DNA of 64,000 nt, from NCBI GenBank assembly GCA_003285105.1, contig CP030158.1:2208501-2272500 (forward strand), read 5' to 3'. Below are positions 40,167 through 62,140 of the stretch, piece after piece. The position numbers and the translations under genes are program-made. The stretch is from Roseithermus sacchariphilus (GTDB lineage: Bacteria > Bacteroidota > Rhodothermia > Rhodothermales > MEBIC09517). Under the pieces are notes generated by a model, which did not search any database, had not been told where the DNA came from, and saw nothing but the letters and a program-made list of their open reading frames with translations. The number at the start of each line of letters is the position of its first letter. Within the stretch, counting starts at the first letter, position 1.

Positions 40167-40178
40167 AAAAGACTCCGC

Positions 40179-40207: not shown

Positions 40208-40223
40208 GAATCGGCCGCGCGCA

Positions 40224-40255: not shown

Positions 40256-40304
40256 CTTGCGCTGCCGGCGATTCCGAAAACGTCTTGAGTCCATCCCCTG
40301 AACG

Positions 40305-42632: not shown

Positions 42633-42702
42633 TTCCGGCCCGCGGTACGTCCCCACGCTGCCCGCCTCCCACCCCATCCCCGGTTTTGCTTCTCCCCGGC
42701 CC

Positions 42703-44133: not shown

Positions 44134-44186
44134 GCGGCGTTTCTCTTCCCGCCCCCCCCTGTGAGCCCTCAACCGGAGATCCTGCC

Positions 44187-45329: not shown

Positions 45330-45353
45330 CGGCGGTTCGGGCGAGGCCGCCCG

Positions 45354-46994
45354 TCACTCCCCGCCGGGCCCGGTGTTCTCCAGGATGAGGACGGAGGGGG
45401 CTTCCCGCATCCAGCGCTCGAAGAGGCCGGAGCGGTCCCCCTGCGGGCCGAAGCTGATGTTGGAGCCCAGCAGGATGTCCGGGTCCTGATCCCCGTCGAG
45501 GTCCCCCACGGCCATCCGCAGCCACCGGCCGCGCTGGGCATCTTCGAAGGTGTAGGCGTCGAAGGTGAGGTCGCCGCGGTTGCGCAGGAGCACGAAGCTT
45601 TCCTCCGGCGTGCGGGCGTAGTCGGGGAAATAAGAGATGGCGGCGATGTCGAGGTCGCCGTCCCCGTCGAAGTCGGCCGCTTCGGCCGAGATGGCCCCGT
45701 TGAGGGGGAAGAAGAACCCTTCCTCGAACGAGCCGTCTGCGCGTCCGAGGAAGAGGCGGAGGCCGTGGTAGGGTTTCAGGATGGGCGTGATGTCGGCGTT
45801 GTTGCCGTTGACGTAGAGGATGTCCTGGATCCCGTCGGCATTGGCGTCGACGAAGGAGAAGTGGTTGGAGCCGTAGACCGGTGGGAAGCGCAGCACGCGG
45901 GTGCGGGAGAAGCGTCCGTGGCCGTCGTTCAGGTAGAGGTCGATGCCTTCATCGCCCTGGGCCATCAGGGCCCCGATGTCCGGGTGGCCGTCTCCGTTGA
46001 GGTCGCGCACGACCGCGTTGGTGGCGCCGGGGCTGGGGTTCAGCACGTGGCGGCGGTAGGTCCCGTCGCCGGTGTCTTCGAACCAGGCGAGCGCCCCGGT
46101 GTGATTGCCGAACTCGCAGATGACGAAGTCCTGGCGGCCGTCCCCATTGAGATCGGCGAGGTCCAGGTCGACGGGGCGTTTGAGGCCGGTGAGGAGGGGG
46201 CGGGGGGGCTCCTGAGGGCCGTCGATCACGAAGAGCGCCCCGTCGGCCCGGTCGGTCGGGGCGACGGTCTGGCCGGCGAGGAGGATCAGGAGCCGGCCCT
46301 CGTCCCACTGGGCCGCGATGGGGGCGCCGTCGAGGAGCCAGTTGAACAGCACCTCGTCGGTGCCGCGGACGACGATGAGGCTGCCCGTTCGGGCATGGTT
46401 GCCGACGAAAAACACCTGGCGTTCCTCCTCGATCTCAACCAGGGTCGTCAGCGGCCGTCGGAAGCGCTGGCCCGTGTCGCGCACGCGGAAGCCGGGCAGC
46501 CCGACCGTGAGGGGCGGGCGAGGCGGCCCCGTCAGCGTATCCGGCGCCTCGCGCAGGTAGTAGTCCACGAGGGCCTGCCACTCGTCTGCCGAGAGGGCCG
46601 GTGTGGTCGGGTAGAGCGAGTCCACGTTGACCCCGTCGGGGGCCGTCAGGGCGATCAGGCTGTCGCGGGAGTGGACGGGGTACACCCCGAGGCGGGCGGC
46701 CATGAAGGGCAGCACCGTCGTCCAGCGAGGGCGGTCCAGCAAGGCGGGGTCGGGGAAGGCGTGGCAGGCGGCGCAATGGGTCCGGGCCAGGTGCTCCCCG
46801 CGGTCGGTGGCGGGCGGGTGTGCGGAGGACGGGGTGGGGGCGGGCTCGCAGCCGGCCGCCAGCAGTCCGGCGAGCAGTAGCCCGGCGAGCGCCGCCATCG
46901 GCCGGACGTGCCGCCGCAGGACGGGCGCACGGCCGGGGGCGGCGGGGGAGGGGCGTCGGTAGGGGCGGGGCAGAAGCTCGGGCAACGACGTCAT
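45354..46994 (-). CDS. Haem-binding FG-GAP/VCBS-repeat lipoprotein
   Basis: The protein has 546 residues if the ATG at 46994 is used; a second ATG at 46898 would give a tighter lipoprotein signal (MAALAGLLLAGLLAAGC). After the lipobox comes a c-type haem motif, Cys74-Ala-Ala-Cys77-His78 in ARTHCAACHAF, with a short cytochrome-like segment to about residue 160 (MAARLGVYP provides a candidate Met ligand). The rest is a beta-propeller of FG-GAP repeats with calcium-type loops: LADLNGDGRQDF, VRDLNGDGHPDI, FVDANADGIQDIL, AADFDGDGDLDIA, VGDLDGDQDPDIL. It should be an exported electron-transfer or binding protein. It is the last gene of the xyloglucan operon, 32 bp after GH44. Function unproven. Confidence 0.82.
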   Translation of the reverse strand: MTSLPELLPRPYRRPSPAAPGRAPVLRRHVRPMAALAGLLLAGLLAAGCEPAPTPSSAHPPATDRGEHLARTHCAACHAFPDPALLDRPRWTTVLPFMAARLGVYPVHSRDSLIALTAPDGVNVDSLYPTTPALSADEWQALVDYYLREAPDTLTGPPRPPLTVGLPGFRVRDTGQRFRRPLTTLVEIEEERQVFFVGNHARTGSLIVVRGTDEVLFNWLLDGAPIAAQWDEGRLLILLAGQTVAPTDRADGALFVIDGPQEPPRPLLTGLKRPVDLDLADLNGDGRQDFVICEFGNHTGALAWFEDTGDGTYRRHVLNPSPGATNAVVRDLNGDGHPDIGALMAQGDEGIDLYLNDGHGRFSRTRVLRFPPVYGSNHFSFVDANADGIQDILYVNGNNADITPILKPYHGLRLFLGRADGSFEEGFFFPLNGAISAEAADFDGDGDLDIAAISYFPDYARTPEESFVLLRNRGDLTFDAYTFEDAQRGRWLRMAVGDLDGDQDPDILLGSNISFGPQGDRSGLFERWMREAPSVLILENTGPGGE

Positions 46995-47026
46995 GCAGGT
47001 GGGGGCGGGGGATCGTCGCAGGCGGC

Positions 47027-48763
47027 CTATCGCAGAATGAGGTGTGCGGCCGTCAGCGGAGGGAGGGTGAGGGTGAAGGTGTTGCCGGTGATGCCGGTGA
47101 CATCGTCGCGCCGGAGGATCTGCGGGCTCCGGGCATCGAAGGCCCACACCTCCCCCGTAGCATAGGCCGTGTCCCCCTCGATGCGGATCTGCATCTCCAG
47201 GGCGCCCTCGGTGTTTTTGTTGATCAAGATCGCGTGCAGCGGTCTGGCGTCATGGCCTTCGAGCGCGGCGTAGACCGACGTCTGGTGCGGGTCGCTGGTG
47301 GTGGCCCGGACGCTCGTATCGCCGTAGGCGCCACCGTTGCCGTCATAGTTTCGGTAGAGCCGGAAGGCGGCGGCGGTGTAGGCATCTTCGGTCTCGATGC
47401 CCCAGAGCGTGGCGATGTAGACGCCGTGACGGCCGAAGGCCCCGAGCACATCGGCCTGGGCCAGCCCGCCCGACACGCTTCGTCCACCTCCGTAGTTGTA
47501 TTCGGAGATGGCGAGCTTCGTGCCGGGATAGTGGGCCTCGATGGAGGCCTGGAGCGTCGGCAGGATGGGCAGGAAGGCGCTGCAGCAGTCCGCGATCCAG
47601 CTGGTTTCGGTGTAGGTGGGGTCCCACAGCGAGCGTGGCGCCTGCAGGCGGGCCGCCACGTCCGCCGGCGTCGTGGCATCGGGGTCGGTGATGCGGTGGT
47701 CGCCGTGGGCCTCCGGGTACCAGTGCACGTCGAGCACGTCCACCAGCCGCCGCCCCGTCGCCTGCTCGGCCTGCCGGAGCCGGTCCAGGTAGTAGTCGAT
47801 GAACCACCGGTACCCCGCGCCGGCCTGGTTCCAGTCCGGTGCGTCTTGCAGGCTCAGGTAGGCCGCGAAGCCATAGAGCGCCGGCCCCAGCACCTCGCTG
47901 TTCGGGTCGACGTCCTTGACGGCGGAGGCCAGGTCGATGGTGCGCTGCAGCAGCTCCTCGGCGCCGACGGGGTCCGGGTGGATGCGGGGGTGGGTATGAG
48001 CCCAGAGGGCGGGCTCATTGTCCAGGCTGTACCATCGGATGCCGTTCGGCGTCGTGGCCGCTCCGTAGCGCTGAACGAGGAAGTGGACGAGTTCGTCCAT
48101 GTAGACGGCATCGTCTCCGGGGTCGGGCGTCAGGGTGAAGGGAGCGTCCTTGCGGGGGTAGGCCGGGACCCAGCGGGGAGAGGGGGCCGTCTGCCCCGCG
48201 CTGACCGGCCCGAAGTCGTCCCGCGCGACGAAGCCCGCCATCTGGAGCGTGACGATGGAGGCGGCCCCCATCTGCAGGGATTGATCGTGGAAGAACGTGA
48301 CGACGCGGGCCGGTTCGCCGGCCTCACCGTCCGGGATGCCGGCGTTGAAGAGCAGAAAGCGATCGCTGTAGTGCTGGTAGTCACTTCCCGCGTTGGAGAA
48401 GTTGTTTTCCCAGTTGTAGCCGGTAAGGCGGTTGCCGCCGAGGCGGCGGACGGTCCACACGGTGCCCGCCCGGTCCTGGTTGGAGCCGTAGATGTAGGGG
48501 CTGATGGGGCGGCGATCCGCCTCCGGGTTGAGCGTGACGACGGCCTGCCCGACGACCTCGTACTCGGGCTCGTCGTCGCCCGGGGAGCCGGCGCTGTCGC
48601 AGCCGGAGACCACCAGCACGCAGAGCCCCAGCGCGGAGAGCCCCAGCGCGGAGAACCAGCGCACGGCGTGCCGCCGCACGGTCTGGCTCTGCGGCGGCGG
48701 AGTGGCAGACCGTGCGACCGGGGAGCGGCGGCTCCGCGGGTCTGTCGTGGAACGGGCAGGCAT
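47027..48763 (-). CDS. GH44 endo-beta-1,4-glucanase/xyloglucanase, lipoprotein
   Basis: This surface lipoprotein has 578 residues from the ATG at 48763; a GTG at 48679 gives a more compact signal (VRRHAVRWFSALGLSALGLCV..VSGC) and may be the true start. The GH44 catalytic barrel shows SPYIYGSNQD, RRLGGNRLTGYNWENNFSNA, acid/base Glu250 in SLDNEPALWAHTH and nucleophile Glu421 in AISEYNYGGG. The last about 90 residues form the beta-sandwich typical of GH44. Activity on xyloglucan or cellulose is known for the family; the adjoining GH31 alpha-xylosidase argues for xyloglucan. It lies 119 bp after the GH31 gene on the same strand. Confidence 0.92.
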   Translation of the reverse strand: MPARSTTDPRSRRSPVARSATPPPQSQTVRRHAVRWFSALGLSALGLCVLVVSGCDSAGSPGDDEPEYEVVGQAVVTLNPEADRRPISPYIYGSNQDRAGTVWTVRRLGGNRLTGYNWENNFSNAGSDYQHYSDRFLLFNAGIPDGEAGEPARVVTFFHDQSLQMGAASIVTLQMAGFVARDDFGPVSAGQTAPSPRWVPAYPRKDAPFTLTPDPGDDAVYMDELVHFLVQRYGAATTPNGIRWYSLDNEPALWAHTHPRIHPDPVGAEELLQRTIDLASAVKDVDPNSEVLGPALYGFAAYLSLQDAPDWNQAGAGYRWFIDYYLDRLRQAEQATGRRLVDVLDVHWYPEAHGDHRITDPDATTPADVAARLQAPRSLWDPTYTETSWIADCCSAFLPILPTLQASIEAHYPGTKLAISEYNYGGGRSVSGGLAQADVLGAFGRHGVYIATLWGIETEDAYTAAAFRLYRNYDGNGGAYGDTSVRATTSDPHQTSVYAALEGHDARPLHAILINKNTEGALEMQIRIEGDTAYATGEVWAFDARSPQILRRDDVTGITGNTFTLTLPPLTAAHLILR

Positions 48764-48882
48764 GGCGGCGGCGAGGGTGGTGCGAGCAAGGGGGCGAGGC
48801 GGGCCCTCCCGCGCCCCGGCGGGGCGGGAGGGCCGCGTGGGACGGAAGCGGGTCCGGCGCAGAGGGCCTCTCCGGCGTGTGT

Positions 48883-51300
48883 TCAATGCCCCTGGTAGGA
48901 GGTGTGCCGGGTGATCGTCCAGCGCACCTGCCCGTCGAGCGGGTCGTTGGCGAGCCGGTAGGTGCCGTTCTCCGCGGTCAGCGAGAGCGTGTGCAGGGTG
49001 GCCTCCGGGGGGAGCGCCACGAAGCCCTCGGCCGGCCGGTCGTCGGTGGTGAAGACCACGAGGTCGAGGCGGGACCAGTCCAGGTCCCGGGTGGACTGAG
49101 CCAGGCCGATGTGGGGGAGGACGGCACCGTCGCGGACGAGCATGATGACCGGGATCGGCCCGGCCTCGATGGAATGCCAGCCGCCGGCATAGACCGCCCC
49201 CGTCTGATAGTCGATCCAGGTGCCCGGGGGCAGGTAGACGTCACGGCCGGAGGATTCTTCCAGCAGCGGGGCCACGAGGATGTCCTGCCCGAAGAGGTAC
49301 TGGTCCTCGACGAGCCAGGAGCCGGGGTCGTCCGGGTATTCGACGAAGAGGGCCCGGACCATGGGCAGGCCGTGGTCGGCGCTGTGGCGGGCCTGGGCGT
49401 ACACGTAGGGCATGAGCCGGTACTTCAGCTCGGCGGCCCGGCGGTAGTCGTTCAGGAGGGCTTCGCTGAAGAGCCAGGGTTCGCGGGGCGGCTGGCCGTG
49501 GCTGCGCGTGTGCGAGCTGAGGAAGCCGAAGGGCGTCCAGCGGCGGTAGAGCGACTCGGGCGGGGGGGCGGTGAAGCCGCCGATGTCGTGGCTCCAGAAG
49601 GTGAAGCCCGAGAGGCCCAGGGAGAGGCCGCCGCGCAGTGTGGCCGCCATGCCGTTGTCCGACGTGGCGGCGTCGCCGCCCCAGTGTACGGGATAGCGCT
49701 GGCTGCCGGCCCAGGCGCTGCGGGCCCACATGATCTGCTCACCCGTGATGGCCTTCGTGACCTCGGCGACGACCTTGTTGTAGCGCAGCGGGTAGAGGTT
49801 GTGCTCGTACCAGCCCGTCCGCCCCGAGTGGTAGAGGCCCGTCAGCGGGGCGGCCTCCCCGAAGTCCACTTTGATGGCGCCCACCCCCATCTGCAGCAGA
49901 TGGCCGATCTGCTCGGCGTACCAGTCGATCGCCTCCGGGTTGGAGAAGTCGAGGATCGCGTCTTCGTAGGGCAGGTCCCCCTCGGCGTCGCGCACGGCCA
50001 GGCCCCGGGAGACGATCTCCGGGAACAGCCGGTTCTTCGGCACGAAATAGGGCAATTGCCACAGGCTGATATGGAAGCCCTGCGCCTTGAGGTCGTCGAT
50101 CATCTGCTGCGGGTCCTCGAAGCGCGAGGGGGCGAAGCGGTAGTCCGTGCGCCAGTCCGTCTCGAACCAGCCGGTATCCAGGTGGATGACGTCGCTGGGG
50201 ATGCGGTGCTCCCGGAGGCGAGCGGCTACGTCCCGCACCTCGGCCTCCGAAAAGTAGCTGATACGGCTCATCCAGGTACCGAAGGACCAGAGCGGCGGCA
50301 TGGGGGCCTTGCCGGTGAGGTCGGTGTAGGCATCGAGGATGTCCCTGGGCTGGCCCAGGAAGACGAACAGGTCCAGGTCGTCATCGCCCAGCAGGAGGGT
50401 GCTGTGGCCGTTGAAGTCGACGCCGAAGTCGAGCGTCATGGGTGCCGTTTCGTGGAGGAACATGCCGTAGCCCCGGTTGCTCATGAAGAACGGGATGGGC
50501 TTGTACATGGCCATGTTCTCGGCGCCGTTGGCATCGTCGGTGAACAGGATCACCTTCTGGCCCCGCTTGTCGAGCGCGGTGAAGGACTCGCCGGTGCCGA
50601 AGATCTTCTCGCCCGGAGCCAGTTCGAAGGTGGCCGCCATCCATTGCTGGTAGTCGGCGGCCCGCCGCATGAACGAGAACGGCAGCGAGGGGGTGTAGGA
50701 GCGGTTGTCCTGCTGGTGGACGGTGCGGGTGAGCAGGCGGCCCTCGGCGTCGCGAAACTCGATACGCCAGGGGTAGGTGAAGACGGTCACCGAGCCGTGG
50801 GCGCTCGTGTAGCGGTGCCCGCCCTCGACGGCGTCGTAGCGCCAGGCGGTCGCATCCTGCGGGGCCGTGCCGCCCACGAGCATCAGCGAAGGCTCCTCGG
50901 CGTGGTATTCCGGACGGGTGTGGACGCGCAGCCGTACCGTGCGCGGCGAGACGAAGGACAGCGAGAAGGGCTGCTCCGGGGCGACGGCGTATTCCCCGCC
51001 GGGGAAGACGGCCTCGTTACGGGGTTGCAGGACGGCCAGGATGTTGTTGAAGGCCATCTGCGTGACATATTCATGCCGCCGGTACCGGATCGTCCCCGAC
51101 GCCGTCGCCGGGTCGAACGAAGCCAGACTATCCGCCAGGTAGTACCCGTTGCCGAAGTCGTGGAAGTCCTGGCTGAGATCCACGATCTCGTTCATCAGGT
51201 AAGGCTGGTAGGGAGTCTGGGCGGCAGCGGGTGCCGGCAGGCCGAGCAGGGCCGCCAGCAGGGCCGCGCCAAAGAGCCGGGACAGGGTCTGGACGGACAT
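48883..51300 (-). CDS. GH31 alpha-xylosidase
   Basis: The 805-residue exported enzyme (signal peptide MSVQTLSRLFGAALLAALLG.., about 1-27) removes alpha-1,6-xylose side chains from xyloglucan oligosaccharides. GH31 features: an N-terminal beta-sandwich (about 40-260), barrel start PMPPLWSFGTWMSRISYFSE, nucleophile Asp479 in AIKVDFGEAAP, acid/base Asp543 in WGGDAATSDNG, and C-terminal sheet domains with DVYLPPGTWIDYQTGAVY. The K-x-DFGE form of the nucleophile motif marks the alpha-xylosidase (YicI/XylS) branch, as opposed to the alpha-glucosidase W-x-DMNE form. The ATG at 51300 gives the signal; the frame is open further upstream. It lies 76 bp after the second DUF4249-like gene. Confidence 0.94.
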   Translation of the reverse strand: MSVQTLSRLFGAALLAALLGLPAPAAAQTPYQPYLMNEIVDLSQDFHDFGNGYYLADSLASFDPATASGTIRYRRHEYVTQMAFNNILAVLQPRNEAVFPGGEYAVAPEQPFSLSFVSPRTVRLRVHTRPEYHAEEPSLMLVGGTAPQDATAWRYDAVEGGHRYTSAHGSVTVFTYPWRIEFRDAEGRLLTRTVHQQDNRSYTPSLPFSFMRRAADYQQWMAATFELAPGEKIFGTGESFTALDKRGQKVILFTDDANGAENMAMYKPIPFFMSNRGYGMFLHETAPMTLDFGVDFNGHSTLLLGDDDLDLFVFLGQPRDILDAYTDLTGKAPMPPLWSFGTWMSRISYFSEAEVRDVAARLREHRIPSDVIHLDTGWFETDWRTDYRFAPSRFEDPQQMIDDLKAQGFHISLWQLPYFVPKNRLFPEIVSRGLAVRDAEGDLPYEDAILDFSNPEAIDWYAEQIGHLLQMGVGAIKVDFGEAAPLTGLYHSGRTGWYEHNLYPLRYNKVVAEVTKAITGEQIMWARSAWAGSQRYPVHWGGDAATSDNGMAATLRGGLSLGLSGFTFWSHDIGGFTAPPPESLYRRWTPFGFLSSHTRSHGQPPREPWLFSEALLNDYRRAAELKYRLMPYVYAQARHSADHGLPMVRALFVEYPDDPGSWLVEDQYLFGQDILVAPLLEESSGRDVYLPPGTWIDYQTGAVYAGGWHSIEAGPIPVIMLVRDGAVLPHIGLAQSTRDLDWSRLDLVVFTTDDRPAEGFVALPPEATLHTLSLTAENGTYRLANDPLDGQVRWTITRHTSYQGH

Positions 51301-51376
51301 GAGCGAGGGGAGGTCTGGTATGTCGGTTCGGGTAGAGGAGGGCAGGCTCCGGGGACGGGAGCGGTCGGCTCCGCCG

Positions 51377-52285
51377 TCAGCGGTTAGGAAGGTAATCAGT
51401 CTGTTCGACCACCTCAAACGGGAGCGTCCACGAGCGCGACAACTCGTAGCCCCCGCCGATGAAGCCGAAGCCGTTTTCCACGTTGCTCATCGTGCCGGGC
51501 TGGATGAGCACGTTCGGGTCGAAGACCCCGCCGGGCGGCATCCAGGCGTCATCGGCGACGACCGTTCGGAAGGTCACGGTCAGCAGCCGGATGCCCTCAT
51601 CTACGATGAAGTTCGAGTCTTCCGTGACGGATCCGAAGACGGGGTAATAGCTGCGCGTCAGGTTGATGGCGAAGGTCCAGCCGTCCGCGGTGCGCCGCAG
51701 GTTGGTGTCGAAGGGGATGTAGTGGCGGTAGAAGGCGAAGATCGGCACGGCGATGGGGGGCGGCGAAAATCCGACGACGTAGCTGACGTAGATCTCCACC
51801 TCGCTCTGGATCAGGTTCCGGGCCTCGCCCTCGATGCGCGCCGGCAGGATCACCTCGCGCGTCGTGTCCGGTTCTTCGAGGATCAGCAGGGCGCGCTCGG
51901 GGATGTGGACCTCCGCCCAGGTCGCCGCACCGTCGTCCCGCGTGATCGTGACCCGGTAGCGATGATCCCAGGCCACGCGGAACGGCGCGTAGAAGACGTG
52001 CCCGACCTGCCCCGTCGAGTCGACGAAGACGGAGTCGCGCCAGAGGCGTTCTTCGCCCGTGTCCAGGTCGAGCGAGGTGAAGCGGGCGTCGAGCGGTTCG
52101 GGGCGGCCCGGCTCCAGCAGGGGTTCGATGGGGAAGACGCGGACGAACTGCGTGTCGGCCAGCGGGTTGAGCACGCCCCACATCGAGTAGGGGTATTGAA
52201 ACGGGTCCGGGCCGGCGACGTCTTCCTCGCAGCCCAGCAGCAGGGCCGCCAGGACGACGAGCAAGAGGGTACGACTCACACGCAT
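51377..52285 (-). CDS. DUF4249-like outer-membrane lipoprotein, copy B
   Basis: A 302-residue lipoprotein (MRVSRTLLLVVLAALLLGC, lipobox LLGC at Cys19). The mature part is beta-rich, like the DUF4249 family of Bacteroidota lipoproteins found next to TonB receptors; the family assignment is by pattern and context. It is a tandem paralogue of the preceding gene: both share WGVL.P.ADTQFVRVFPIE, GRPEPLDARFTS.DLDTGEE, WRDSV, GHVFYAPFR and the C-terminal PGTMSNVENGFGF. The start codon lies inside the end of copy A (10-bp overlap), so translation is coupled. It is likely to assist the TonB receptor, perhaps taking the place of SusD (inference). Confidence 0.82.
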   Translation of the reverse strand: MRVSRTLLLVVLAALLLGCEEDVAGPDPFQYPYSMWGVLNPLADTQFVRVFPIEPLLEPGRPEPLDARFTSLDLDTGEERLWRDSVFVDSTGQVGHVFYAPFRVAWDHRYRVTITRDDGAATWAEVHIPERALLILEEPDTTREVILPARIEGEARNLIQSEVEIYVSYVVGFSPPPIAVPIFAFYRHYIPFDTNLRRTADGWTFAINLTRSYYPVFGSVTEDSNFIVDEGIRLLTVTFRTVVADDAWMPPGGVFDPNVLIQPGTMSNVENGFGFIGGGYELSRSWTLPFEVVEQTDYLPNR

Positions 52286-53199
52286 GGCTGATAGTCTGCT
52301 CTGAAACCGGATCGTTCGATGACACGGACCGGCAAGGCCCAGGTGCGCCGGAGGCGGTAGCCGGCGCCCACGAAGCCAAAGCCGTTTTCGACGTTGCTCA
52401 TGGTCCCCGGCTGGGCCAGCACGTCCAGGTCGAAGACTCCACCGGGCGGGTTCCAGGCCTCGTTGGCCACGATGGTGTCGAACCGGAGGGAGGCCAGCGT
52501 GATGCCGAGGGGCCGCACGAAGTCCGGGTCCTCGAGCACCCGCTCCTCCACGAAACGGTACACCTCGCCGAGGTTCACCAGGAACCACCAGCCGTCGTCC
52601 GTGCGCCGGGCACGGTCGTCGAACGGGAGGACGAAGACGGGGATCTCGTAGAGCGGGCAGCCGCCGTCGGTGAAGCCGGTGACGTAGCCGGCGCCCACCG
52701 TCAGTTCGCTGCGCACCAGCCGGGGCGGGTCGTTGAGGACGTAGACGGGCAGCAGCACGCCCTGTAGCGTATCCGGTTCGGCCAGCGTCAGCGCGGTCCG
52801 GGGCGGCACGGTCACCTCCACCGTGCTGGAGCGCCCGTCGGCGGCGGTGATCTCCAGGCGGTAGGTGTGCGTGTGGACGGCCCGGAAGGGCGCGTAAAAG
52901 ACGTGCCCCACGACGCCCTGCTCGTTGACGAGGACGGAGTCGCGCCAGACGTGCTCCTCACCCGTGTCCAGGTCGCGCGAGGTGAAGCGGGCGTCGAGCG
53001 GTTCGGGGCGGCCCCGGTTCAGCGTGCCTTCGATGGGGAAGACGCGGACGAACTGCGTGTCGGCGATGGGGCTGAGCACTCCCCACAGGCTGAAGGGGTG
53101 CTCCGTGCCCAGCACGGCCACGACGTCCTCCTCGCAGCCGGTCAGCAGCAGCGCCAGTCCGAGGAGCAGGGCGGTGGGTCCGGAAGTGCGCGGTCTCAC
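52276..53199 (-). CDS. DUF4249-like outer-membrane lipoprotein, copy A
   Basis: A 307-residue lipoprotein starting at a GTG (53199) whose bases overlap the TGA of the TonB receptor gene as GTGA, a classic coupled stop-start. Signal VRPRTSGPTALLLGLALLLTGC, lipobox LTGC, then the shared motif CEEDV. It is homologous to the next gene along most of its length, with long runs of near-identical DNA around 52970-53080 and 52070-52175, which points to a tandem duplication. Copy A differs in its C-terminal third and has an extra Cys pair (DGGCPLYE, YQPCV). The function is not known; position suggests an accessory of the TonB receptor. Confidence 0.82.
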   Translation of the reverse strand: MRPRTSGPTALLLGLALLLTGCEEDVVAVLGTEHPFSLWGVLSPIADTQFVRVFPIEGTLNRGRPEPLDARFTSRDLDTGEEHVWRDSVLVNEQGVVGHVFYAPFRAVHTHTYRLEITAADGRSSTVEVTVPPRTALTLAEPDTLQGVLLPVYVLNDPPRLVRSELTVGAGYVTGFTDGGCPLYEIPVFVLPFDDRARRTDDGWWFLVNLGEVYRFVEERVLEDPDFVRPLGITLASLRFDTIVANEAWNPPGGVFDLDVLAQPGTMSNVENGFGFVGAGYRLRRTWALPVRVIERSGFRADYQPCV

Positions 53200-55565
53200 T
53201 CGAAGGCGACCTTGATACCCAGCGAGGGAATGAACGGGAGTTGATCGACCCGGTGCAGGGTGAACACGTCGAGGTAGAACAGGTTGCGACGGTTGTACAC
53301 GTTGATGGCGCTGCCCTGCACCGTCACATCGACGGGGCCGGCGGTGAAGGTGCGGTCCAGCGACACGTCGAGGCGGTGGTAGGTAGGCAGGACGGCGTTG
53401 TAGGGGCGTTCGTAGATCACCCGCCGCGAGTAGGGCGCCCGCAGCACGTCCACTACGTCGTCGATCAGCACGAAGCCGTCGAAGCCCAGCGCGCGGCTGA
53501 AGGGCAGGCCCGAGCCGAACGTCCACCGCGCACTCAGTTCGAAGCCGTAGAAGCGGGTGCTGAGCAGCGCGTTGAGCTGGTGCCGCCGGTCGTGTGGTGG
53601 GCGGAAGGACAGCGTTTCCTCGCCGTACCAGAGTTGCAGCGAGGCCTGCCGGGCTTCATACCGGGTGTTGGAATAGCCGTAGTTGAGGTAGCCGTAGAAG
53701 GCGGGGAAGCGCCGGACCTCCAGGCGGGCGTCGAAGCCGTAGGAGCGGCCCGTGGCCGGCTGGAGGCGGGTGGTGAAGCGCGGAAAGGCCGTCCATTCCG
53801 AGACGAACAGGTTGTCCAGCCACTTGTAGAAGCCCTCGACGGAGAATTCCAGCCAGTCGGTGGGGTTGCTGCGGTAGCCGAGGATGGCATGCGTGGCCGT
53901 CGGGATGTTCTCCGCGAGCACGTTGGGCTGGCTGGGGTTGAGCTTCGGAATGTTGGTCCAGGCCGTGAAGACACTCGCGGCATCGCGTCGGTCGCTGAGG
54001 CCGACCATTTCCTGGGTGTAGCGGCCGGTGGCGGCGCTGAACTGGTGGCGGCCCCAGGCCCACACCACGCGCAGGCGCGGCTCCAGGTAAGGATCGACGC
54101 GGATGGCGAACCACTGCGCCCGCAGGCCCGGCCGCACCTGCACCGGGCCGAAGCGGAACTCGGGTTCGACGTAAAAGATGATGTGGTCGATGTCGACGCG
54201 CTTGAACTCGGTGTTCTGGAAGGTGCCGCCGAGCTCGGAGTCGGCCGAGATGAAGCGCAGGGCAAAGCCGGCATCCGTGCTCGTTTCGTCGCCGGCGAAG
54301 GTGGCGTCCAGAGAGATGGACGTGTTGGAGACGGACGAGGTGCGGGCCGGAGCGCCGGCCGTGCCCAGTTCCGAATCCAGCCAGGAGCGCGTCACGCGCA
54401 GGTCCGTCGAGATGGGCAGGAAACGAGGCAGGCTCACGTAGCGCAGGCCGATGGCCCGGTTCTCCCACCGGATCTCCTCGGCCGGGCGCCCTGCGTCTTC
54501 CTCGATGAGCGTGCCCCGGTCGTGGGTTCGGATGCCGCTGACGGAGAGCCGCCCCCGGCTCGAGATGTCGGCATGGATCTTGGCAAACGTGTCGCCGAAG
54601 TCGAACGGCAGGCGTTCGTCGAGCAGCGGCTCGGCGCCCTGCTCGATCAGCGACCGGCGGGCCGAGACGAGGAACGAGACGTGGTCCGGGACGAGGGGCC
54701 CCTCCAGGCGCAGCGACCCCATGAAGGGAGACACCGAGCCGGCGCCGGCGAAGCGGCGTTTGTTGCCCGTGCGCGTCCACACGTCGATCACCGACGAGAT
54801 GCGCTCGCCGAAGCGGGCGCCGTAGCCGCCGGCATAGATATCGGTGCGGCTGAGGATGTCCGCCGGGAAGGCGGAATAGAAGCCGAGGATGTGGAAGGGC
54901 TGGTAGAGCAGCATGCCGTCGAGCTGCACGAGGTTCTGCGTCGGCTCGCCGCCACGGATGAAGAGCTGCCCGCCGCGGTCGCCCGTGGAGACGACGCCGG
55001 GTTGGGTGGTGAGGTAGCCGACCAGGTCCCCCGAAACGTCCGGCATCGGGATCATCTCGATGTCGGCCGGGCGGATGGTTTGCTGCCCGGCGGTGACGCG
55101 CGCGGCACCGGATTCGCGTTCGGTCTGCACGACGACCTCGTCGAGGCGAGCCTCGTCGGGGGCCAGCTGGATGTTGAGGGTGCGCGTCTCGTTGGCCTCC
55201 AGGTCGAGCGAGTCGGCGAACGTCTCGTAGCCGATGAAGGTGGCCCGGAGCAGATAGCGGCCGGGCGGGATCCGCGCCAGCAGGTACAGGCCGTCTCCGT
55301 CGGTGACGGTGCCTTTGACCAGGCCGTCCTCGTTCACCAGCACGACGTTGACCAGCTCCAGCGGCTGCCCGTCCGACCGGTCGGCCACGAAGCCGTTGAC
55401 CGTGGCGAGCTGGGCCAGCACCCCGGGGACGAAGAAGAACCCGAGGCCCAGCAGCGTCAGCCCTCGCCACGACGCTGCGAAACGCCACCGGGACAGCGTG
55501 CCCGGCTCCGGGGAGGGGGGGGCGGGGCGTAGCCGCCCGGCTCGTTCAAGCAGCGATCGGAGCAT
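53196..55565 (-). CDS. TonB-dependent receptor of the xyloglucan operon
   Basis: The 789-residue outer-membrane receptor begins at the ATG at 55565. An unusually long N-region (about 30 residues, Pro/Arg-rich) precedes the signal helix LTLLGLGFFFVPGVLA. Next are a carboxypeptidase-regulatory-like domain (about 55-140: VNGFVADRSDGQPLELVNVVL, TVTDGDGLYLLARIPPGRY) and a plug (about 150-260: GDLVGYLTTQPGV, GGQLFIRGGEPTQNLVQLDG). The barrel ends in Phe-Glu (IKVAFE) rather than a plain aromatic residue. It is smaller than SusC and has no SusD partner; two DUF4249-like lipoproteins follow with overlapping reading frames. With GH31 and GH44 downstream it probably imports xyloglucan oligosaccharides. 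Confidence 0.9.
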   Translation of the reverse strand: MLRSLLERAGRLRPAPPSPEPGTLSRWRFAASWRGLTLLGLGFFFVPGVLAQLATVNGFVADRSDGQPLELVNVVLVNEDGLVKGTVTDGDGLYLLARIPPGRYLLRATFIGYETFADSLDLEANETRTLNIQLAPDEARLDEVVVQTERESGAARVTAGQQTIRPADIEMIPMPDVSGDLVGYLTTQPGVVSTGDRGGQLFIRGGEPTQNLVQLDGMLLYQPFHILGFYSAFPADILSRTDIYAGGYGARFGERISSVIDVWTRTGNKRRFAGAGSVSPFMGSLRLEGPLVPDHVSFLVSARRSLIEQGAEPLLDERLPFDFGDTFAKIHADISSRGRLSVSGIRTHDRGTLIEEDAGRPAEEIRWENRAIGLRYVSLPRFLPISTDLRVTRSWLDSELGTAGAPARTSSVSNTSISLDATFAGDETSTDAGFALRFISADSELGGTFQNTEFKRVDIDHIIFYVEPEFRFGPVQVRPGLRAQWFAIRVDPYLEPRLRVVWAWGRHQFSAATGRYTQEMVGLSDRRDAASVFTAWTNIPKLNPSQPNVLAENIPTATHAILGYRSNPTDWLEFSVEGFYKWLDNLFVSEWTAFPRFTTRLQPATGRSYGFDARLEVRRFPAFYGYLNYGYSNTRYEARQASLQLWYGEETLSFRPPHDRRHQLNALLSTRFYGFELSARWTFGSGLPFSRALGFDGFVLIDDVVDVLRAPYSRRVIYERPYNAVLPTYHRLDVSLDRTFTAGPVDVTVQGSAINVYNRRNLFYLDVFTLHRVDQLPFIPSLGIKVAFE

Positions 55566-55809
55566 GGAAGGGAGGGTCACGACGTCGGCCGGGACTGCCG
55601 GAGGGGTCGGGGTGCCGAAAAAGGCCGGGCCGGGATTCGGTTGACGTGAAGCACGCTGATGCGTAATATGCCGAAATGCGCGCCGAGTGGAAGCCGTTTC
55701 CGGTCCGTGAGCAACGCCCCATTCGGTTTCAGGTCGGTGCCAGGAAGGTGGAAAAGCGCCCCGTCCGAGGGGGCGTGCAACCGCGTGGATGCCCGATGGG
55801 GAAGGAGGG

Positions 55810-55838
55810 ATGATAGAAGCCCTTCCGCGGGTTGTCAA
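55810..55838 (-). promoter_or_regulatory. Promoter of the minus-strand TonB-receptor operon
   Basis: On the minus strand TTGACA (55833-55838) is separated by 17 bp from TATCAT (55810-55815), six of six and five of six consensus bases. The implied leader is about 235 bases to the ATG at 55565. Its -35 element is one half of an inverted repeat with the divergent promoter. Confidence 0.65.
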
Positions 55839-55861
55839 GGGCCGATGAATTTACCTTGACA
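55833..55861. promoter_or_regulatory. Inverted repeat joining two divergent -35 elements
   Basis: TGTCAAGG (55833-55840) and CCTTGACA (55854-55861) are perfect 8-bp inverted arms 13 bp apart. Each arm contains a TTGACA reading outward, so the two divergent promoters are symmetric about 55847. The site could also bind one dimeric regulator controlling both operons. Confidence 0.55.
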
Positions 55862-55886
55862 TCCTGTGGCGACCCCGTTAAATTTG
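55856..55886 (+). promoter_or_regulatory. Promoter of the plus-strand TonB-receptor operon
   Basis: TTGACA (55856-55861) and TAAATT (55879-55884) are 17 bp apart. The same bases also fit the Bacteroidota form TTG-N20-TAAATTTG (TAnnTTTG consensus, 55879-55886). This is the best promoter match in the window. Confidence 0.7.
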
Positions 55887-56288: not shown

Positions 56289-59200
56289 ATGAGACGAGCT
56301 ACGCTACTACTCGCGGTCGCTCTGCTGTTTCCCGCCACCGTCGCCCTGGCCCAGAGCGGCAAGATTGCCGGGATCGTAACGGACGCCGCAACCGGAGAGC
56401 CCCTGATCGGCGTGAACGTCGTGATCGAGGGGACCACGCAGGGTGCCACGACGGACATCGATGGCTACTACGTGATCCTCAACGTGCGCCCCGGCACGTA
56501 CAACGTGCGGGCGTCCTTCATCGGCTTTACGCCCGTGACGGCGCGCAACGTGGAAGTGAACATCGACCTGACCACCGAGCTGAACTTCCAGTTGCAGGAA
56601 GAAGCACTCGGGCTGGAAGAGGTCGTCGTGACGGTGGAGCGCCCCGTCGTGCAGCGCGACGTGTCGGCCAGTCTGGCCAACATTGGCACGGAGCAGATGG
56701 AGAACCTGCCCGTGGCGAGTGTCGCTGAGGTGATCAGCCTGCAGGCCGGTTTCGAGCCGGGGCTGGAGATTCGCGGTTCCGGTGGCAACCAGGTCGCCTT
56801 TGCCGTCGACGGCATCAGCTATACCAACCCCCGCAGCAACAACCCGAACACCGAGATCAGCTTCACGGCCATTGATGAGGTGCAGGTGCAGACGGGCGGG
56901 TTCAACGCCGAATACGGCAACGTGCGCAGCGGCCTGATCAACGTGGTGACGAAGGACCCCTCCCGTACGCGGTACTCGGCGGACGTCATCCTGCGCTACA
57001 GCGCACCCAGCCAGAAGAACTTCACCGAGTTCGGAACCGGTTTCGGGGACGTGGATCATTCGTTCTGGGCCTACCCGCGGCTGAGCCGGGACGAGTTTCT
57101 CGACCCCAACACCGGCGAGATGTGCGAGGTCTCCATGTGTGGGGTGGGCATCCTGCCCCAGCATCTGCGCACGCAGTACGAGCAGTTCCAGGGATGGAAC
57201 AGCCTGGCCGAGGGGAGCGGCTATACCCCGGAGCAATTGCGCAAAGCGCAGGAGTGGATCTTCCGGAAGGATTTCGAGATCAGCGAGCCGGACTATGAAG
57301 TGGACGGCACCATCACCGGCCCCATCCCCGGCATCGGTCCCATGCTGGGCGACCTGCGCTTCCTGGCGTCGTTCCGGCAGTCGCAGCAGGCCTTCCTGAG
57401 CCCCGGGCAGCGCCCGGCGGAAACCCGGCGGACCTTCCAGGGCAAGCTCGTCTCCGACCTCGCGCCCGGGATGAAGCTGTCCTTCAGCGGGATCTACAAC
57501 AAGACGGAAGCGCTGGCCTTCACCGGAGAAGGCCTGGGGTACGTAAACGTGACGGCCGGAACGCCCGAGTACACCTGGGATGATCGGAACTGGATCGAGG
57601 GTAACCTCACGGGATTCCAGGAGATCGAGACCTGGGGCGACTGGTTCTACAGCCCGCACGATATCACCAATACCCTTCTGGGGGCCGAGTTCACGCACAC
57701 CATCAGCCCGAGCACGTTCTACGAGGTGAAGCTGCAGCGTAACTCGGTTCGGGACCGCACCGGAGCGCCGGCCCCCCGGGCCCGGGACGCCAACGGAGAG
57801 GTGCTCATCGTGCGGTGTGTCACGCCGGACCTGCAACTCGTCGAAGCCAACGGCTCGTGCCCGGACGGCCACGTCCCGCTGACCGAGGCGCCCTTCGGGT
57901 ACAACCCCCAGTATGAGACCACGCCCACCGGGCAGAACCTCGGGTCGCAGCGCGGCGACGCTCGCGATACCTCCGACGTCGTGCGCTGGAGCGGTCGATT
58001 CGACATCACCAGCCAGATCAACCGCTTCATGCAGGCCAAGGCCGGTGTCGAGTTCCTCTACAGCGACTACAACGTCTTCTACGGCTCGTGGGACCCGGCC
58101 AACCCTCATCAGGAGAACGAGCGCTACCGCTGGGACCGGAGCCCGCTCCAGGGGGCCCTCTACGGCCAGACCAAGCTCGAATTCAAAGGCATGGTCGCCA
58201 ACCTGGGCCTGCGGGCGGACTACTTCCACGCCGGGGGTGAGTGGTACGACTACACGGCCTTCAGCACGCTGTTCTCCGCCTCGCAGGGCTTCGACGTGCT
58301 CGACCAGGCCGAAACCGTACCGACCGAGCGCCAGATCACGCTCAGCCCGCGGCTCGGCGTTTCCTTCCCTGTGACCGACGACAGCAAGTTCTACTTCAAC
58401 TACGGGCACTTCCGGCAGATGCCGGATCCGTTCCGGCTCTTCGAGATCCAGTACGGAGCCTTCACCACGCAGATCACGCGGATCGGGAACCCCAACATCA
58501 AGCTGCCCAAGACGGTGGCTTACGAGCTGGGCTTCGAGCAAAACCTGCTGGACCAGTTCCTCATCCGCCTGGCCGGCTTCTACCGGGACATCTCCTCGGA
58601 AGGGCGGGACGTGACGTACGTCAGCGTCGACGAACTCGTCAACTACGCCCGGCAGGAGCCGCTCGGCTGGGCCGATAACCGCGGCTTCGAGATCACGCTC
58701 GAGAAGAACCGCGGGGACTGGATCCGGGGCTTCATCAACTACACCTACCTGTCCCGTAAAAACGGTCGCTTCGGGTACGGTACCATCCACCAGAACCGCC
58801 GCCGTTTCATCGAGACCATCAACGATCCCAACAGCCTGCAGCAGGACGCGCGGGTGCCCGAGCCCTATGCCAACATGAACCTGGAACTGCGTTTCCCCAA
58901 GGACTTCGGTCCGTCCGTGGCGGGAGCCAAGGTGCTGGGTGACTGGCGGCTGAACCTGCTCGGCGAGTGGCGCAGCGGTGCGCCTTCCAGCTGGGACATC
59001 GGCGGAAACACCTTCACGTTGCGGGGCGCCGGAAACGACCGGCGGATCGCCTACAACGTCAAGTGGAAGGACTACTGGATGTTCGACATGCGGCTGAGCA
59101 AGAACTTCAACACGTCCATCGGGAATGCTCAGTTCTACATCGACATCGAGAACGTCTTCAACATCCGCCAGCTCTACTGGCGCGGCGGGCGCATCTTCAA

Positions 59201-59597
59201 CGGGGACAACGACATGCGGGATTACTTCCGCTCGTTGCATCTGCCCGCGCCCGAAGAGCTCTACGCCGGCCTTCCCGAAGAAAGCCTCAACCCGGGCTAC
59301 AACTGGGTGCCGGGTAAGGACCAGCCCGGCGACTACCGCAAGCCGGGGGTGGCCTTCGACCCCATCTACGCCGTTCAGGAGATCGGAGGGGTGACCAGCC
59401 CCATCGAGGGGGCCCTCTACTACGACCTGAGCCAGGGGCGCTACATGACCTACACGGGTGGCTCCTGGGGACCGGCCGACGAGAGCCGCGTGGATCAGGT
59501 CCTGGAGGACAAGGCCTACATCGATATGCCCAACAACTACGTGATGGGCTTCCTGAACCCGCGTAACGTGTTCTTCGGGTTCCGGCTCAGCTTCTAG
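56289..59597 (+). CDS. Large TonB-dependent receptor with carboxypeptidase-like domain
   Basis: This outer-membrane receptor has 1,102 residues. The ATG at 56289 starts a clear signal peptide (MRRATLLLAVALLFPATVALAQ). A carboxypeptidase-regulatory-like domain (about 23-110: GKIAGIVTDAATGEPLIGVNV, TTDIDGYYVILNVRPG) leads to the plug (about 115-235: LEEVVVTVERPVV, LPVASVAEVISLQAG, LEIRGSGGNQVAFAVDGIS, GGFNAEYGNVRSGLINVVTK) and a barrel ending GFRLSF. This type, without SusD, is common next to T9SS-linked surface proteins. The downstream genes encode a sorting-domain protein and a PorV/PorQ-like barrel, so its role may be assembly of, or uptake linked to, an extracellular system rather than glycan import (inference). 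Confidence 0.93.
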   Translation: MRRATLLLAVALLFPATVALAQSGKIAGIVTDAATGEPLIGVNVVIEGTTQGATTDIDGYYVILNVRPGTYNVRASFIGFTPVTARNVEVNIDLTTELNFQLQEEALGLEEVVVTVERPVVQRDVSASLANIGTEQMENLPVASVAEVISLQAGFEPGLEIRGSGGNQVAFAVDGISYTNPRSNNPNTEISFTAIDEVQVQTGGFNAEYGNVRSGLINVVTKDPSRTRYSADVILRYSAPSQKNFTEFGTGFGDVDHSFWAYPRLSRDEFLDPNTGEMCEVSMCGVGILPQHLRTQYEQFQGWNSLAEGSGYTPEQLRKAQEWIFRKDFEISEPDYEVDGTITGPIPGIGPMLGDLRFLASFRQSQQAFLSPGQRPAETRRTFQGKLVSDLAPGMKLSFSGIYNKTEALAFTGEGLGYVNVTAGTPEYTWDDRNWIEGNLTGFQEIETWGDWFYSPHDITNTLLGAEFTHTISPSTFYEVKLQRNSVRDRTGAPAPRARDANGEVLIVRCVTPDLQLVEANGSCPDGHVPLTEAPFGYNPQYETTPTGQNLGSQRGDARDTSDVVRWSGRFDITSQINRFMQAKAGVEFLYSDYNVFYGSWDPANPHQENERYRWDRSPLQGALYGQTKLEFKGMVANLGLRADYFHAGGEWYDYTAFSTLFSASQGFDVLDQAETVPTERQITLSPRLGVSFPVTDDSKFYFNYGHFRQMPDPFRLFEIQYGAFTTQITRIGNPNIKLPKTVAYELGFEQNLLDQFLIRLAGFYRDISSEGRDVTYVSVDELVNYARQEPLGWADNRGFEITLEKNRGDWIRGFINYTYLSRKNGRFGYGTIHQNRRRFIETINDPNSLQQDARVPEPYANMNLELRFPKDFGPSVAGAKVLGDWRLNLLGEWRSGAPSSWDIGGNTFTLRGAGNDRRIAYNVKWKDYWMFDMRLSKNFNTSIGNAQFYIDIENVFNIRQLYWRGGRIFNGDNDMRDYFRSLHLPAPEELYAGLPEESLNPGYNWVPGKDQPGDYRKPGVAFDPIYAVQEIGGVTSPIEGALYYDLSQGRYMTYTGGSWGPADESRVDQVLEDKAYIDMPNNYVMGFLNPRNVFFGFRLSF

Positions 59598-59609
59598 GAA
59601 GACGCCGTG

Positions 59610-59643
59610 CCGGAGGCCGGGAGGCATCCCGCCCGGCCTCCGG
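59610..59643 (+). terminator. Hairpin after the large TonB receptor
   Basis: A perfect 12-bp inverted repeat (CCGGAGGCCGGG, 59610-59621; CCCGGCCTCCGG, 59632-59643) with a 10-nt loop. No T run follows, so partial termination or mRNA stabilisation before the next gene is likely. Confidence 0.55.
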
Positions 59644-59686
59644 CCGGCCTCATCCGTCCGCATTTAACTGCTTGAAGAGGAAAAAC

Positions 59687-62047
59687 ATGCAGCTTGTTGA
59701 TTTGTCGCATTCTCGGAGGTGGCTCGTAGCGGTGGCCATGCTGCTGCTGGCGATGGGCTGGGCCGATACCGCCCGCGCACAGTATGACTTCCGCTGGCTG
59801 GCCGTCGGGGACTTCCAGCACCGCTACAACGGGGGCCTCGGGCAGCCGGAGATCTATGACCCCTTCCCCATGATGGTCTGGCCGGGCATTCGCAACATGG
59901 CGCCCGGCGGGGTCTCCTACATGCACGTGATCGGCTACTGGATCAGCGTGGCCAACCACACCGACGAACAGGGCAACTTCTGGGAAGTCCGTACCTCCCA
60001 CAGCGGCCCCCGCGCCCTCGGCGTCGGCGAGTTCTATCAGACGGACATGCGGCTCGTCAGCCAGTTCGACTGGCCGCTGAAGACCGTCGACGGCGCTGAA
60101 ACCTTCCAGGTCCCCATCGTGGTCGATGCCGTGGAGAACATCCTGGGTCCCAACGGCCCCGATCAGATGCTGATCAACAAGGTCAACACGTCGGTCGGGA
60201 TCAGCGTGGAACAGCGGTCGATCCAGTTCTCCAACCAGTTCCACGACGACTATCACATCACGGAATTCCGGTTCGTCAACACCGGCAACGTGGACGGGGA
60301 CCCGGAAATCGAGCTGGAGGGGCAGACGGCCGAGGACGTGTACTTCTCCTTCATCCGCCGGCCCAAGACGAGTGCCTCGTCCACCGCCTGGGACAACTCC
60401 ATGGGCGATGCCGCCTGGGGTGCCATCAACCAGACCGACATCATCGGCAACGGGGAGCATGATTATGGCTTGCCCGAGGACTGGCGTGGGATGTTCACCT
60501 GGCTCGAACACGGTCCGGCGAAGACGGAGTACAGCACCATCGGCGGCCCGATGTGGGTGCCGGGCTCCTGGTGGTATGCCCTGCAGGAAGACACGACCGG
60601 GCGTCTCGGTGCTGCGGCCATGCACGGCGAGTTCATCCTCCATGCCGATGGCGAGCCCCACGCGCCCGACCCCGAGGGCCTCGGCGGCTTCTCGCAGCCG
60701 GATGACATCACGCAGCCCAAGCTGATGACCTACATGCACTCGGACGACTCGGACCTGACCGGGAACAGCAACCACAACAACCTCCCGCTGATGATCGAGG
60801 AGCGCGAGTGGATCGAGCGCGGCGTGGAAACCCGGGCGACGAACATGCCCAACGAGTGGTTGAACCCGGATACCCCGGATCGTACGGTGCCCGCTCAACC
60901 GTTCCTGGCCTTCCCGCTGGATCCGGGCGAGGAGCTGGACTTCGTCAAGCACTTCGCGACCACAGCCGACCCGGCCATGCCGCTGGGCAGCTGGAGCTAT
61001 GCCAACAACTTCGGCCCCTACACCATGGAGCCCGGCGAAGAGGTGCGGATCGTCATCGTCGACGGCGTGGCCGGCTTGAGTGACGAACTGGCCGAGGAGC
61101 TGGGCCAGTGGTACCGCCGCAAGATCCGCTGGGAGGGTATGAGCCGCGACGAGGCCGGGGCGCTGCTCTTCAGCTGGAACCCCCGGACCAATCAGACCTG
61201 CACCGACCAGGATGCGCCGGACGCCCCGGACACCGACGGCTGCATCAGTCTGACGAAAGACCAGTGGGTGATGACCTCGCGGGATTCCCTGTTCCAGCTG
61301 ATCCGCCGGGCCAAGGCGGCCTTCGAGAACGGGTATCAGGTCACGGCGCCCCCGCGCCCCCCGAGCAGCTTCAGCGTGACCTCCGGCACCGACCAGATCA
61401 CCATCGAGTGGACGCCCACCGAGGTGCCTGAAGGCGGCTGGGAGCTGTACCGGGCGCAGAACCGGTTCCAGGGCATCCCTGCGCCGAACGAGGAGGAGAA
61501 GTACGTCTGCATCGCCGGGTGCCCCGGCACCCCGGAGCTGCCGCCGACGGCCACCCGGTTCGAGGACACGAACGCGCGGCCCAACGTGCAGTACTTCTAC
61601 TACCTGCAGGCCGTGGGCGCTCCTCAACCCGATGACCCCCTGGCCATCAACGGCACACCGGGCGGCGTTCGCCTGAAGAGCAGCCGGTACTATGCCCAGA
61701 CCTACGATGCGGCCCGGCTCCTCATCCCGCCGGGAGAATCCATGGATGCCATCCGCGTCGTGCCCAACCCGGTCAACCTCGGGGCCGACCAGGGGCTGCG
61801 CTGGCCCGGTGACATCGGCCGTAACCAGGTGACCTTCTGGAATATCCCCGGCCAGTGTACGATCCGCATCTACACCGAGCTGGGCGAGCTGGTGCGCGTC
61901 ATCGAGCACACGAGCGGAAGTGGCGTCGAAAACTGGAACCTTACGACCGACTCCAACCAGCGGATCGTCAGTGGGATCTACCTCGCGGTGATCACCAACA
62001 ACGATACCGGCGAGGAGGTCATCAAGAAGTTCCTGGTCATCCGTTAG
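59687..62047 (+). CDS. Secreted protein with fibronectin-like segment and T9SS-type C-terminal domain
   Basis: This 786-residue exported protein starts at the ATG at 59687, after an AGAGG ribosome site; a signal peptide (about 1-36, ending ARAQ) follows. Most of the protein (about 37-560) is unlike any family I can name: Trp/Tyr/Asn-rich, with DFRWLAVGDFQHRYNGG at the mature N-terminus. Residues about 560-660 look like a fibronectin type III module (PSSFSVTSGTDQITIEWTPTEVPEGGW read in parts). The end (IRVVPNPVN .. VTFWNIPGQCTIRIYTELGELVR .. SGIYLAVITNN) resembles the T9SS sorting domain. It lies between a TonB receptor and a PorV/PorQ-like gene. Function unknown; likely surface-exposed. Confidence 0.8.
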   Translation: MQLVDLSHSRRWLVAVAMLLLAMGWADTARAQYDFRWLAVGDFQHRYNGGLGQPEIYDPFPMMVWPGIRNMAPGGVSYMHVIGYWISVANHTDEQGNFWEVRTSHSGPRALGVGEFYQTDMRLVSQFDWPLKTVDGAETFQVPIVVDAVENILGPNGPDQMLINKVNTSVGISVEQRSIQFSNQFHDDYHITEFRFVNTGNVDGDPEIELEGQTAEDVYFSFIRRPKTSASSTAWDNSMGDAAWGAINQTDIIGNGEHDYGLPEDWRGMFTWLEHGPAKTEYSTIGGPMWVPGSWWYALQEDTTGRLGAAAMHGEFILHADGEPHAPDPEGLGGFSQPDDITQPKLMTYMHSDDSDLTGNSNHNNLPLMIEEREWIERGVETRATNMPNEWLNPDTPDRTVPAQPFLAFPLDPGEELDFVKHFATTADPAMPLGSWSYANNFGPYTMEPGEEVRIVIVDGVAGLSDELAEELGQWYRRKIRWEGMSRDEAGALLFSWNPRTNQTCTDQDAPDAPDTDGCISLTKDQWVMTSRDSLFQLIRRAKAAFENGYQVTAPPRPPSSFSVTSGTDQITIEWTPTEVPEGGWELYRAQNRFQGIPAPNEEEKYVCIAGCPGTPELPPTATRFEDTNARPNVQYFYYLQAVGAPQPDDPLAINGTPGGVRLKSSRYYAQTYDAARLLIPPGESMDAIRVVPNPVNLGADQGLRWPGDIGRNQVTFWNIPGQCTIRIYTELGELVRVIEHTSGSGVENWNLTTDSNQRIVSGIYLAVITNNDTGEEVIKKFLVIR

Positions 62048-62060
62048 AAACGCCGGAGTG

Positions 62061-62086
62061 CGCCGGGTCGGCCCTCCGGCCCGGCG
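62061..62086 (+). terminator. Hairpin before the PorV/PorQ-like gene
   Basis: CGCCGGG (62061-62067) and CCCGGCG (62080-62086) form a 7-bp stem; the loop can extend it with TCGG/CCGG. It is followed by C-rich sequence, not Ts. Confidence 0.4.
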
Positions 62087-62140
62087 CCCCCCCCGGCGGG
62101 TTCGATGCTATTTCCGGTGCTTACAACCGAGGGTATCCCA

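Follow-up and report, generated by a model that had tools for sequence, protein, structure and literature searches.

In our study, a stretch of 64,000 nucleotides from the bacterium Roseithermus sacchariphilus (the window; positions 2,208,501 to 2,272,500 of CP030158.1, a genome held in a single contig of 4.8 Mb) has been analysed with regard to an operon of six genes. It encodes a TonB-dependent receptor (TBDTw), two tandem lipoproteins resembling the DUF4249 family (LP1 and LP2), glycoside hydrolases (GHs) of families GH31 and GH44, and a lipoprotein with FG-GAP repeats and a haem motif. The analysis points to a general uptake pair of receptor and lipoprotein, which was recruited to xyloglucan-type oligosaccharides in one branch after duplication of the lipoprotein gene, and we give this reading an even chance of being correct.

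An earlier reading of the same DNA (the original prediction) had described six genes on one strand with overlaps or gaps of 119 bp or less, and this observation has been confirmed. All six genes lie on the minus strand between 55565 and 45354, in the order receptor, LP1, LP2, GH31, GH44 and FG-GAP lipoprotein (Table 1). The GTG start of LP1 at 53199 overlaps the stop of TBDTw by 4 bp and LP2 overlaps LP1 by 10 bp; the gaps that follow are 76 bp (LP2 to GH31), 119 bp (GH31 to GH44) and 32 bp (GH44 to the FG-GAP lipoprotein). Scanning of positions 45000-56500 found no promoter-like or terminator-like site between the six genes. The same region has three promoter-like sites on both strands, where 0.7 are expected, and the sole one on the coding strand (55838-55810) is located upstream of the receptor.

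The receptor-lipoprotein pair in the Rhodothermales

Homologs of TBDTw are present in all 114 Rhodothermales genomes searched and those of LP2 in 65 of 80. A DUF4249-like gene lies within 4 kb of the receptor at 116 of the 129 distinct homologous receptor loci. The lipoprotein is directly downstream of the receptor in 106 cases, with an overlap at the receptor stop of 4 bp in 46 and of 1 bp in 24 of them; genes in the related loci were called with a codon-position GC heuristic, so that errors in some genes and starts are possible. Moreover, the distance matrices of receptor and lipoprotein, compared over 110 pairs, are correlated with r=0.91, the maximum in 500 permutations being 0.11. This value carries no correction for species history, which alone is an unlikely cause because many of the pairs are paralogs inside one genome. 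The comparison supports a true, co-evolving pair of receptor and lipoprotein, which may form a complex, and the co-evolution and gene overlap lend indirect support to a lipoprotein cap over the receptor barrel.

The receptor contains a carboxypeptidase-regulatory-like N-terminal domain and a plug, and it reaches 59.8 bits with the SusC model TIGR04056 (cut-off 368.25), over its N-terminal part only. Judged by these matches, TBDTw is not a SusC. The Pfam scan of the operon proteins gave no match to SusD (PF07980), so that of the SusC-SusD pair and CAZymes which define a canonical polysaccharide utilization locus (PUL), the operon has the CAZymes. The absence of a SusC/SusD pair, as claimed in the original prediction, holds for the operon and fails for the window, where a SusD gene (PF07980, 213 bits) is found at 1203-3041 beside a mannan-type locus; the genome has several SusD genes.

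LP1 and LP2 share about 54% identity and score 26.8 and 25.9 bits with PF14054 (DUF4249), below the gathering cut-off of 28.5, with E-values of about 5e-6 and 9e-6 which indicate relatedness. A profile of the lipoprotein family, aligned by hhalign with a genuine DUF4249 protein encoded at another locus of the genome, gave a weak match (probability 18.7, E 0.0013, 75 columns). Hence "DUF4249-like", the wording chosen originally, is the right one. The subfamily is concentrated in the Rhodothermales and the same class, and elsewhere in the phylum it is rare and its matches are weak. At positions +2 to +5 of the lipobox, at least one D/E is present in 80 of 81 lipoproteins and at least two in 50 of 81, the typical form being C-E-E-D/S-V-x-P. 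These acidic residues resemble the export signal of Bacteroidota surface lipoproteins and suggest that LP1 and LP2 are located at the cell surface. Such an export signal is named in PMC13142918.

Structure prediction of the lipoprotein alone, which had been proposed as a check on surface capture, was carried out on LP2. The AlphaFold2 model, built from an alignment of 74 sequences, is confident (pLDDT 93.5, pTM 0.86), nearly all strand and Ig-like. SusD is a helical protein, and any SusD-like role of the all-beta LP2 would therefore be one of analogy. LP1 and LP2 as relatives of SusD have been ruled out by this predicted fold and by the missing PF07980 match. Structural comparison of the model gave generic two-Ig-domain matches only, with Z no higher than 7.6 and a Foldseek TM, normalized by query length, of at most about 0.3. 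Such matches give no guidance on function. Among the matches listed there is no lipoprotein of the lid type, which does not exclude one.

The genes around the related pairs were also compared by Pfam scanning of the co-directional neighbours (66 downstream and 50 upstream genes, then the unclustered ones singly, with a few short ones unmatched). Downstream of the pairs are class IV aminotransferases (15), TPR proteins (14), family 2 glycosyltransferases (8), YjgF (5) and M19 dipeptidases (4), and upstream of them DUF59/SUF Fe-S assembly genes (8) and SmpB (4). At loci L040, L043, L044, L045, L048, L052, L053 and L058 a paralogous pair directly follows a DUF59-type Fe-S assembly gene of 111 aa. 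A glycoside hydrolase is found directly behind the lipoprotein at two of the 52 scorable loci, those of the window and its nearest relative. The occurrence of receptor and lipoproteins mostly without hydrolases, named beforehand as evidence against a glycan system, is thus what the other 50 loci present, and DUF4249-type pairing is therefore no glycan-specific SusD substitute in general. A dedicated glycan system in the whole family has been ruled out by these non-GH neighbours, and the pair is apparently an old, general-purpose module of Rhodothermales.

The LP1-LP2 branch and its enzymes

The nearest relative of the window is the Rhodothermia bacterium isolate 8_bin.12 (contigs L027/L066 and L183), in which the receptor is 77% and the lipoproteins are 64-65% identical to those of the window. 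The LP1-LP2 duplication is common to both, and in the tree it precedes the split of the lineages with a support of 100/99; no other member of this branch has been found. In 8_bin.12, adjoining parts of TBDT2, the second receptor divergent from TBDTw, are encoded where one contig ends and another begins, and therefore the divergent TBDTw/TBDT2 layout appears to be common to both genomes.

A lipoprotein-type GH29 alpha-L-fucosidase starts 19 bp after the stop of LP2 in this relative. Its genome of 6.2 Mb has just two GH29 genes, and each lies about 6 kb or less from such a lipoprotein. The second one belongs to a run (L028, contig G006:C61, 9587-17848) which begins with an orphan DUF4249-like lipoprotein gene having no adjacent partner receptor, followed by a GDSL esterase, GH2, a luciferase-like monooxygenase and the GH29. 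This run gives weak support to a glycan link, since a gap of 190 bp with a promoter-like site inside it separates the orphan from the next gene. The breakdown of fucogalactoxyloglucan would need GH44, GH31, GH29, GH2 and an acetyl-type esterase. A hydrolase directly downstream is present in 2 of 2 loci of the LP1-LP2 branch versus 0 of 50 outside (Fisher 0.0008), and a glycan system is probably present in this branch.

In the operon of the window, the GH44 protein aligns over about 500 residues with solved GH44 enzymes, reaching 608 bits with 2ykk (deposited as a xyloglucanase), and it keeps both catalytic Glu residues in the NEP and SEY motifs. By these features it belongs to an endo-xyloglucanase family and is a predicted endo-glucanase or xyloglucanase. 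The best solved relatives of the GH31 enzyme are 5f7c and YicI, and the DFGE and GGD motifs with the catalytic Asp are kept. The original label of GH31 alpha-xylosidase holds for the family and is plausible for the specificity. The score of 509.8 bits is below the cut-off of 606 of the NCBIfam alpha-xylosidase model, and at one conserved stretch the enzyme has HLDTGWF, shared with 5f7c (an alpha-glucosidase by its deposition), where YicI has HFDCFWM, so that the alpha-xylosidase label is not settled.

Seven of 114 genomes have homologs of GH44, which are located elsewhere, once in a SusCD locus; GH31 and GH44 as a conserved cassette travelling with the receptor have been ruled out on this ground. 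A GH44 with 60% identity forms part of a canonical SusC-SusD-SGBP_B(xyloglucan-binding)-GH44-GH10 cluster at locus L169 (contig G094:C180, 2425-12355).

Table 1. Features of the operon and of the divergent module next to it (positions in the window)
Feature	Position	Strand	Basis
TBDTw, TonB-dependent receptor, non-SusC	53196..55565	-	PF13620/PF13715/PF07715; TIGR04056 far below cut-off
LP1, DUF4249-like lipoprotein, GTG start	52276..53199	-	PF14054 sub-threshold; lipobox LLTGC-EEDVVA
LP2, second DUF4249-like lipoprotein	51377..52285	-	PF14054 sub-threshold; lipobox LLLGC-EEDVAG
GH31 exo-enzyme, YicI-like (alpha-xylosidase or alpha-glucosidase), signal peptide	48883..51300	-	PF01055
GH44 endo-glucanase/xyloglucanase, lipoprotein	47027..48763	-	PF12891
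Lipoprotein with one CXXCH haem-c motif and FG-GAP propeller repeats	45354..46994	-	PF13517 1.7e-31, cytochrome c 0.0015
Promoter-like site TTGACA-17-TATCAT before the receptor	55810..55838	-	11/12 matches; consensus match only
TBDT2, second TonB receptor, divergent, syntenic partner of TBDTw	56289..59597	+	Pfam; layout apparently kept in the nearest relative
791-aa surface-type protein and FadL/PorV-like protein, behind TBDT2	59672..63184	+	

Glycan uptake weighed against other roles

We propose that the operon works as follows. The non-SusC receptor and the two tandem, surface-exposed DUF4249-like lipoproteins would constitute a TonB-driven uptake system of the outer membrane, and in the LP1-LP2 branch the duplication of the lipoprotein gene would have been accompanied by the joining of this old module to plant-cell-wall enzymes. 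At the cell surface, the GH44 lipoprotein may cleave xyloglucan or beta-1,4-glucan. The oligosaccharides would be bound by LP1 and LP2 on the outer face of the receptor and passed to it, and after TonB-driven import the GH31 enzyme may trim alpha-linked xylose or glucose side chains from them. The FG-GAP haem lipoprotein would be an accessory redox protein, possibly a redox partner of the pair. In this scheme the substrate, the lid mechanism, the surface capture of glycan by the lipoproteins and the cellular location of each enzyme are what we infer from the genes. In its most specific form, the proposal is that the DUF4249-type lipoproteins, Ig-like and in tandem, make up with a receptor family of their own a SusD-independent complex for glycan capture and import, which arose from a general nutrient pair through duplication and was adopted for fucogalactoxyloglucan-type plant glycans; this form is tentative, its chance being well short of even.

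The original prediction of a non-canonical glycan system with surface capture by DUF4249 proteins is consistent with the co-evolving pair, the export-like signals, the intact GH motifs and the GH29 gene behind LP2 in the relative, and it does not extend to the family at large. Several points weigh against glycan uptake even in the LP1-LP2 branch. The operon sits inside a hemicellulose gene island, where glycoside hydrolases near any gene are less surprising. There is one independent case only, because the window was picked for its hydrolases, and counting that case gives 1 of 1 versus 0 of 50 (p about 0.02). The hydrolase-linked form occurs in only two genomes and with unlike enzymes (GH31 and GH44 versus GH29), and elsewhere the receptor family adjoins non-glycan genes. 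Moreover, none of the solved structures matches the lipoprotein by sequence, and no carbohydrate-binding fold is prominent in the fold comparison of LP2.

The same gene neighbourhoods suit the main alternative explanation, in which the nutrient that receptor and lipoproteins import is not a glycan (but iron, haem, or another cofactor or small molecule), as may hold for the rest of the family, and GH31 and GH44 have dropped in behind them within the island and are merely co-transcribed. Outside the LP1-LP2 branch no scorable locus has a hydrolase directly downstream, and in the genomes of one family the pair lies behind Fe-S assembly genes (the eight DUF59-type neighbours), although these neighbours belong to distant paralogs. 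The gene which recurs with the pair across families is that of the haem FG-GAP lipoprotein, not a hydrolase. Its close orthologs (45-52% identity) are found in few genomes, and in two of them (G007:C119 and G030:C359) the ortholog lies within 1.5 kb of a related receptor-lipoprotein pair, in convergent orientation and with one gene between, which is a TPR gene in G007. This recurrence therefore keeps a redox- or metal-related role alive, and lipoprotein-capped TonB receptors do include siderophore importers (PMC13142918). On the other hand, import of a non-glycan nutrient leaves unexplained the hydrolase 19 bp behind LP2 in the only other relative with the duplication, as well as the position of both GH29 genes of 8_bin.12 near such lipoproteins. 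We consider this explanation doubtful but far from negligible.

It is improbable, in our view, that the lipoproteins are surface glycan-binding proteins of the SGBP-B type or accessories of receptor assembly which form no cap, the receptor taking its ligand alone in the manner of SusD-less receptors of Proteobacteria. The Ig-like, two-domain, all-beta fold is closer to elongated binding proteins than to a lid, a SusD-less xyloglucan receptor is known in Cellvibrio japonicus (PMC5816542), and the orphan lipoprotein of 8_bin.12 stands without an adjacent receptor upstream of the esterase, GH2 and GH29. That orphan, however, may be transcribed on its own, the next gene being 190 bp away, and the strong one-to-one pairing, the stop-start overlap and the mirrored distances favour a direct partnership with the receptor.

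Recruitment of the general pair to xyloglucan-type oligosaccharides would carry some consequences. Proteins of the DUF4249 type are found widely as partners of TonB receptors. In the literature searched, a single paper names the family and calls it uncharacterized, and no report of a glycan capture-and-import function for this lipoprotein family was found. An operon having enzymes with a predictable substrate offers a concrete ligand to be tested and would give the DUF4249-like lipoproteins a first testable job. If the reading is true, bacteria of Bacteroidota type possess an operon-encoded glycan uptake which is independent of SusD.

Known systems and neighbouring loci

The receptor-lipoprotein pair as such is not new. 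In the passages of PMC11003636 which deal with BT2172/BT2173 of Bacteroides thetaiotaomicron, a TonB receptor and a DUF4249 protein are described as a functional unit, and disruption of either gene is reported to have similar consequences. As in the window, the receptor there adjoins a DUF4249-type protein, and the same passages describe the pairing as kept across genera; the window differs in having lipoproteins below the Pfam cut-off, in two copies, with enzymes in the operon. Canonical SusC/SusD PULs of Bacteroidota likewise combine a TonB receptor, a surface lipoprotein and glycoside hydrolases in one operon, whereas the operon of the window has no SusD, a receptor other than SusC and a lipoprotein of another fold.

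The xyloglucan locus of Cellvibrio japonicus contains GH31, GH35 and GH95 with a TonB receptor, no SusD being mentioned (PMC5816542). It shares with the window the TonB receptor and GH31 for xyloglucan oligosaccharides, but it belongs to a gammaproteobacterium and has neither DUF4249-like lipoproteins nor GH44. A SusD-less TonB receptor in such a setting was thus already known, and the new element is the DUF4249-like pair. A phrase search of the literature for SusD-free polysaccharide loci found no paper. XusAB and BtuBG likewise have a surface lipoprotein encoded beside a TonB receptor, and the two proteins divide the work in broadly the same way; siderophores are the ligands of XusB, a DUF4374 beta-propeller, and BtuG serves vitamin B12 (PMC13142918, PMC10404256), and no homology of these to LP1 or LP2 was seen.

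On the other side of the promoter region, the TBDT2 module (56289-63184) is linked to TBDTw in several families. Its 791-aa protein is without a Pfam match, has by eye a type-IX-like C-terminus, and has relatives in 103 of 114 Rhodothermales genomes. Several ASPIC/UnbV FG-GAP proteins lie in a row behind this module, just beyond the window (L189, genome positions 2272501-2278971). Beside the operon, positions 32506-45329 encode a glucuronoyl-esterase/GDSL protein, an SDR, GH67, an enolase-superfamily enzyme, GH3, a GPH symporter and GH10, which by their families are a xylan/glucuronoxylan set. A separate glycan locus occupies positions 1203-23216, with the SusD and a TonB receptor, CBM35 proteins, an SSF symporter, GH130, a GlcNAc 2-epimerase and GH26 (mannan-type), and in addition GH9.

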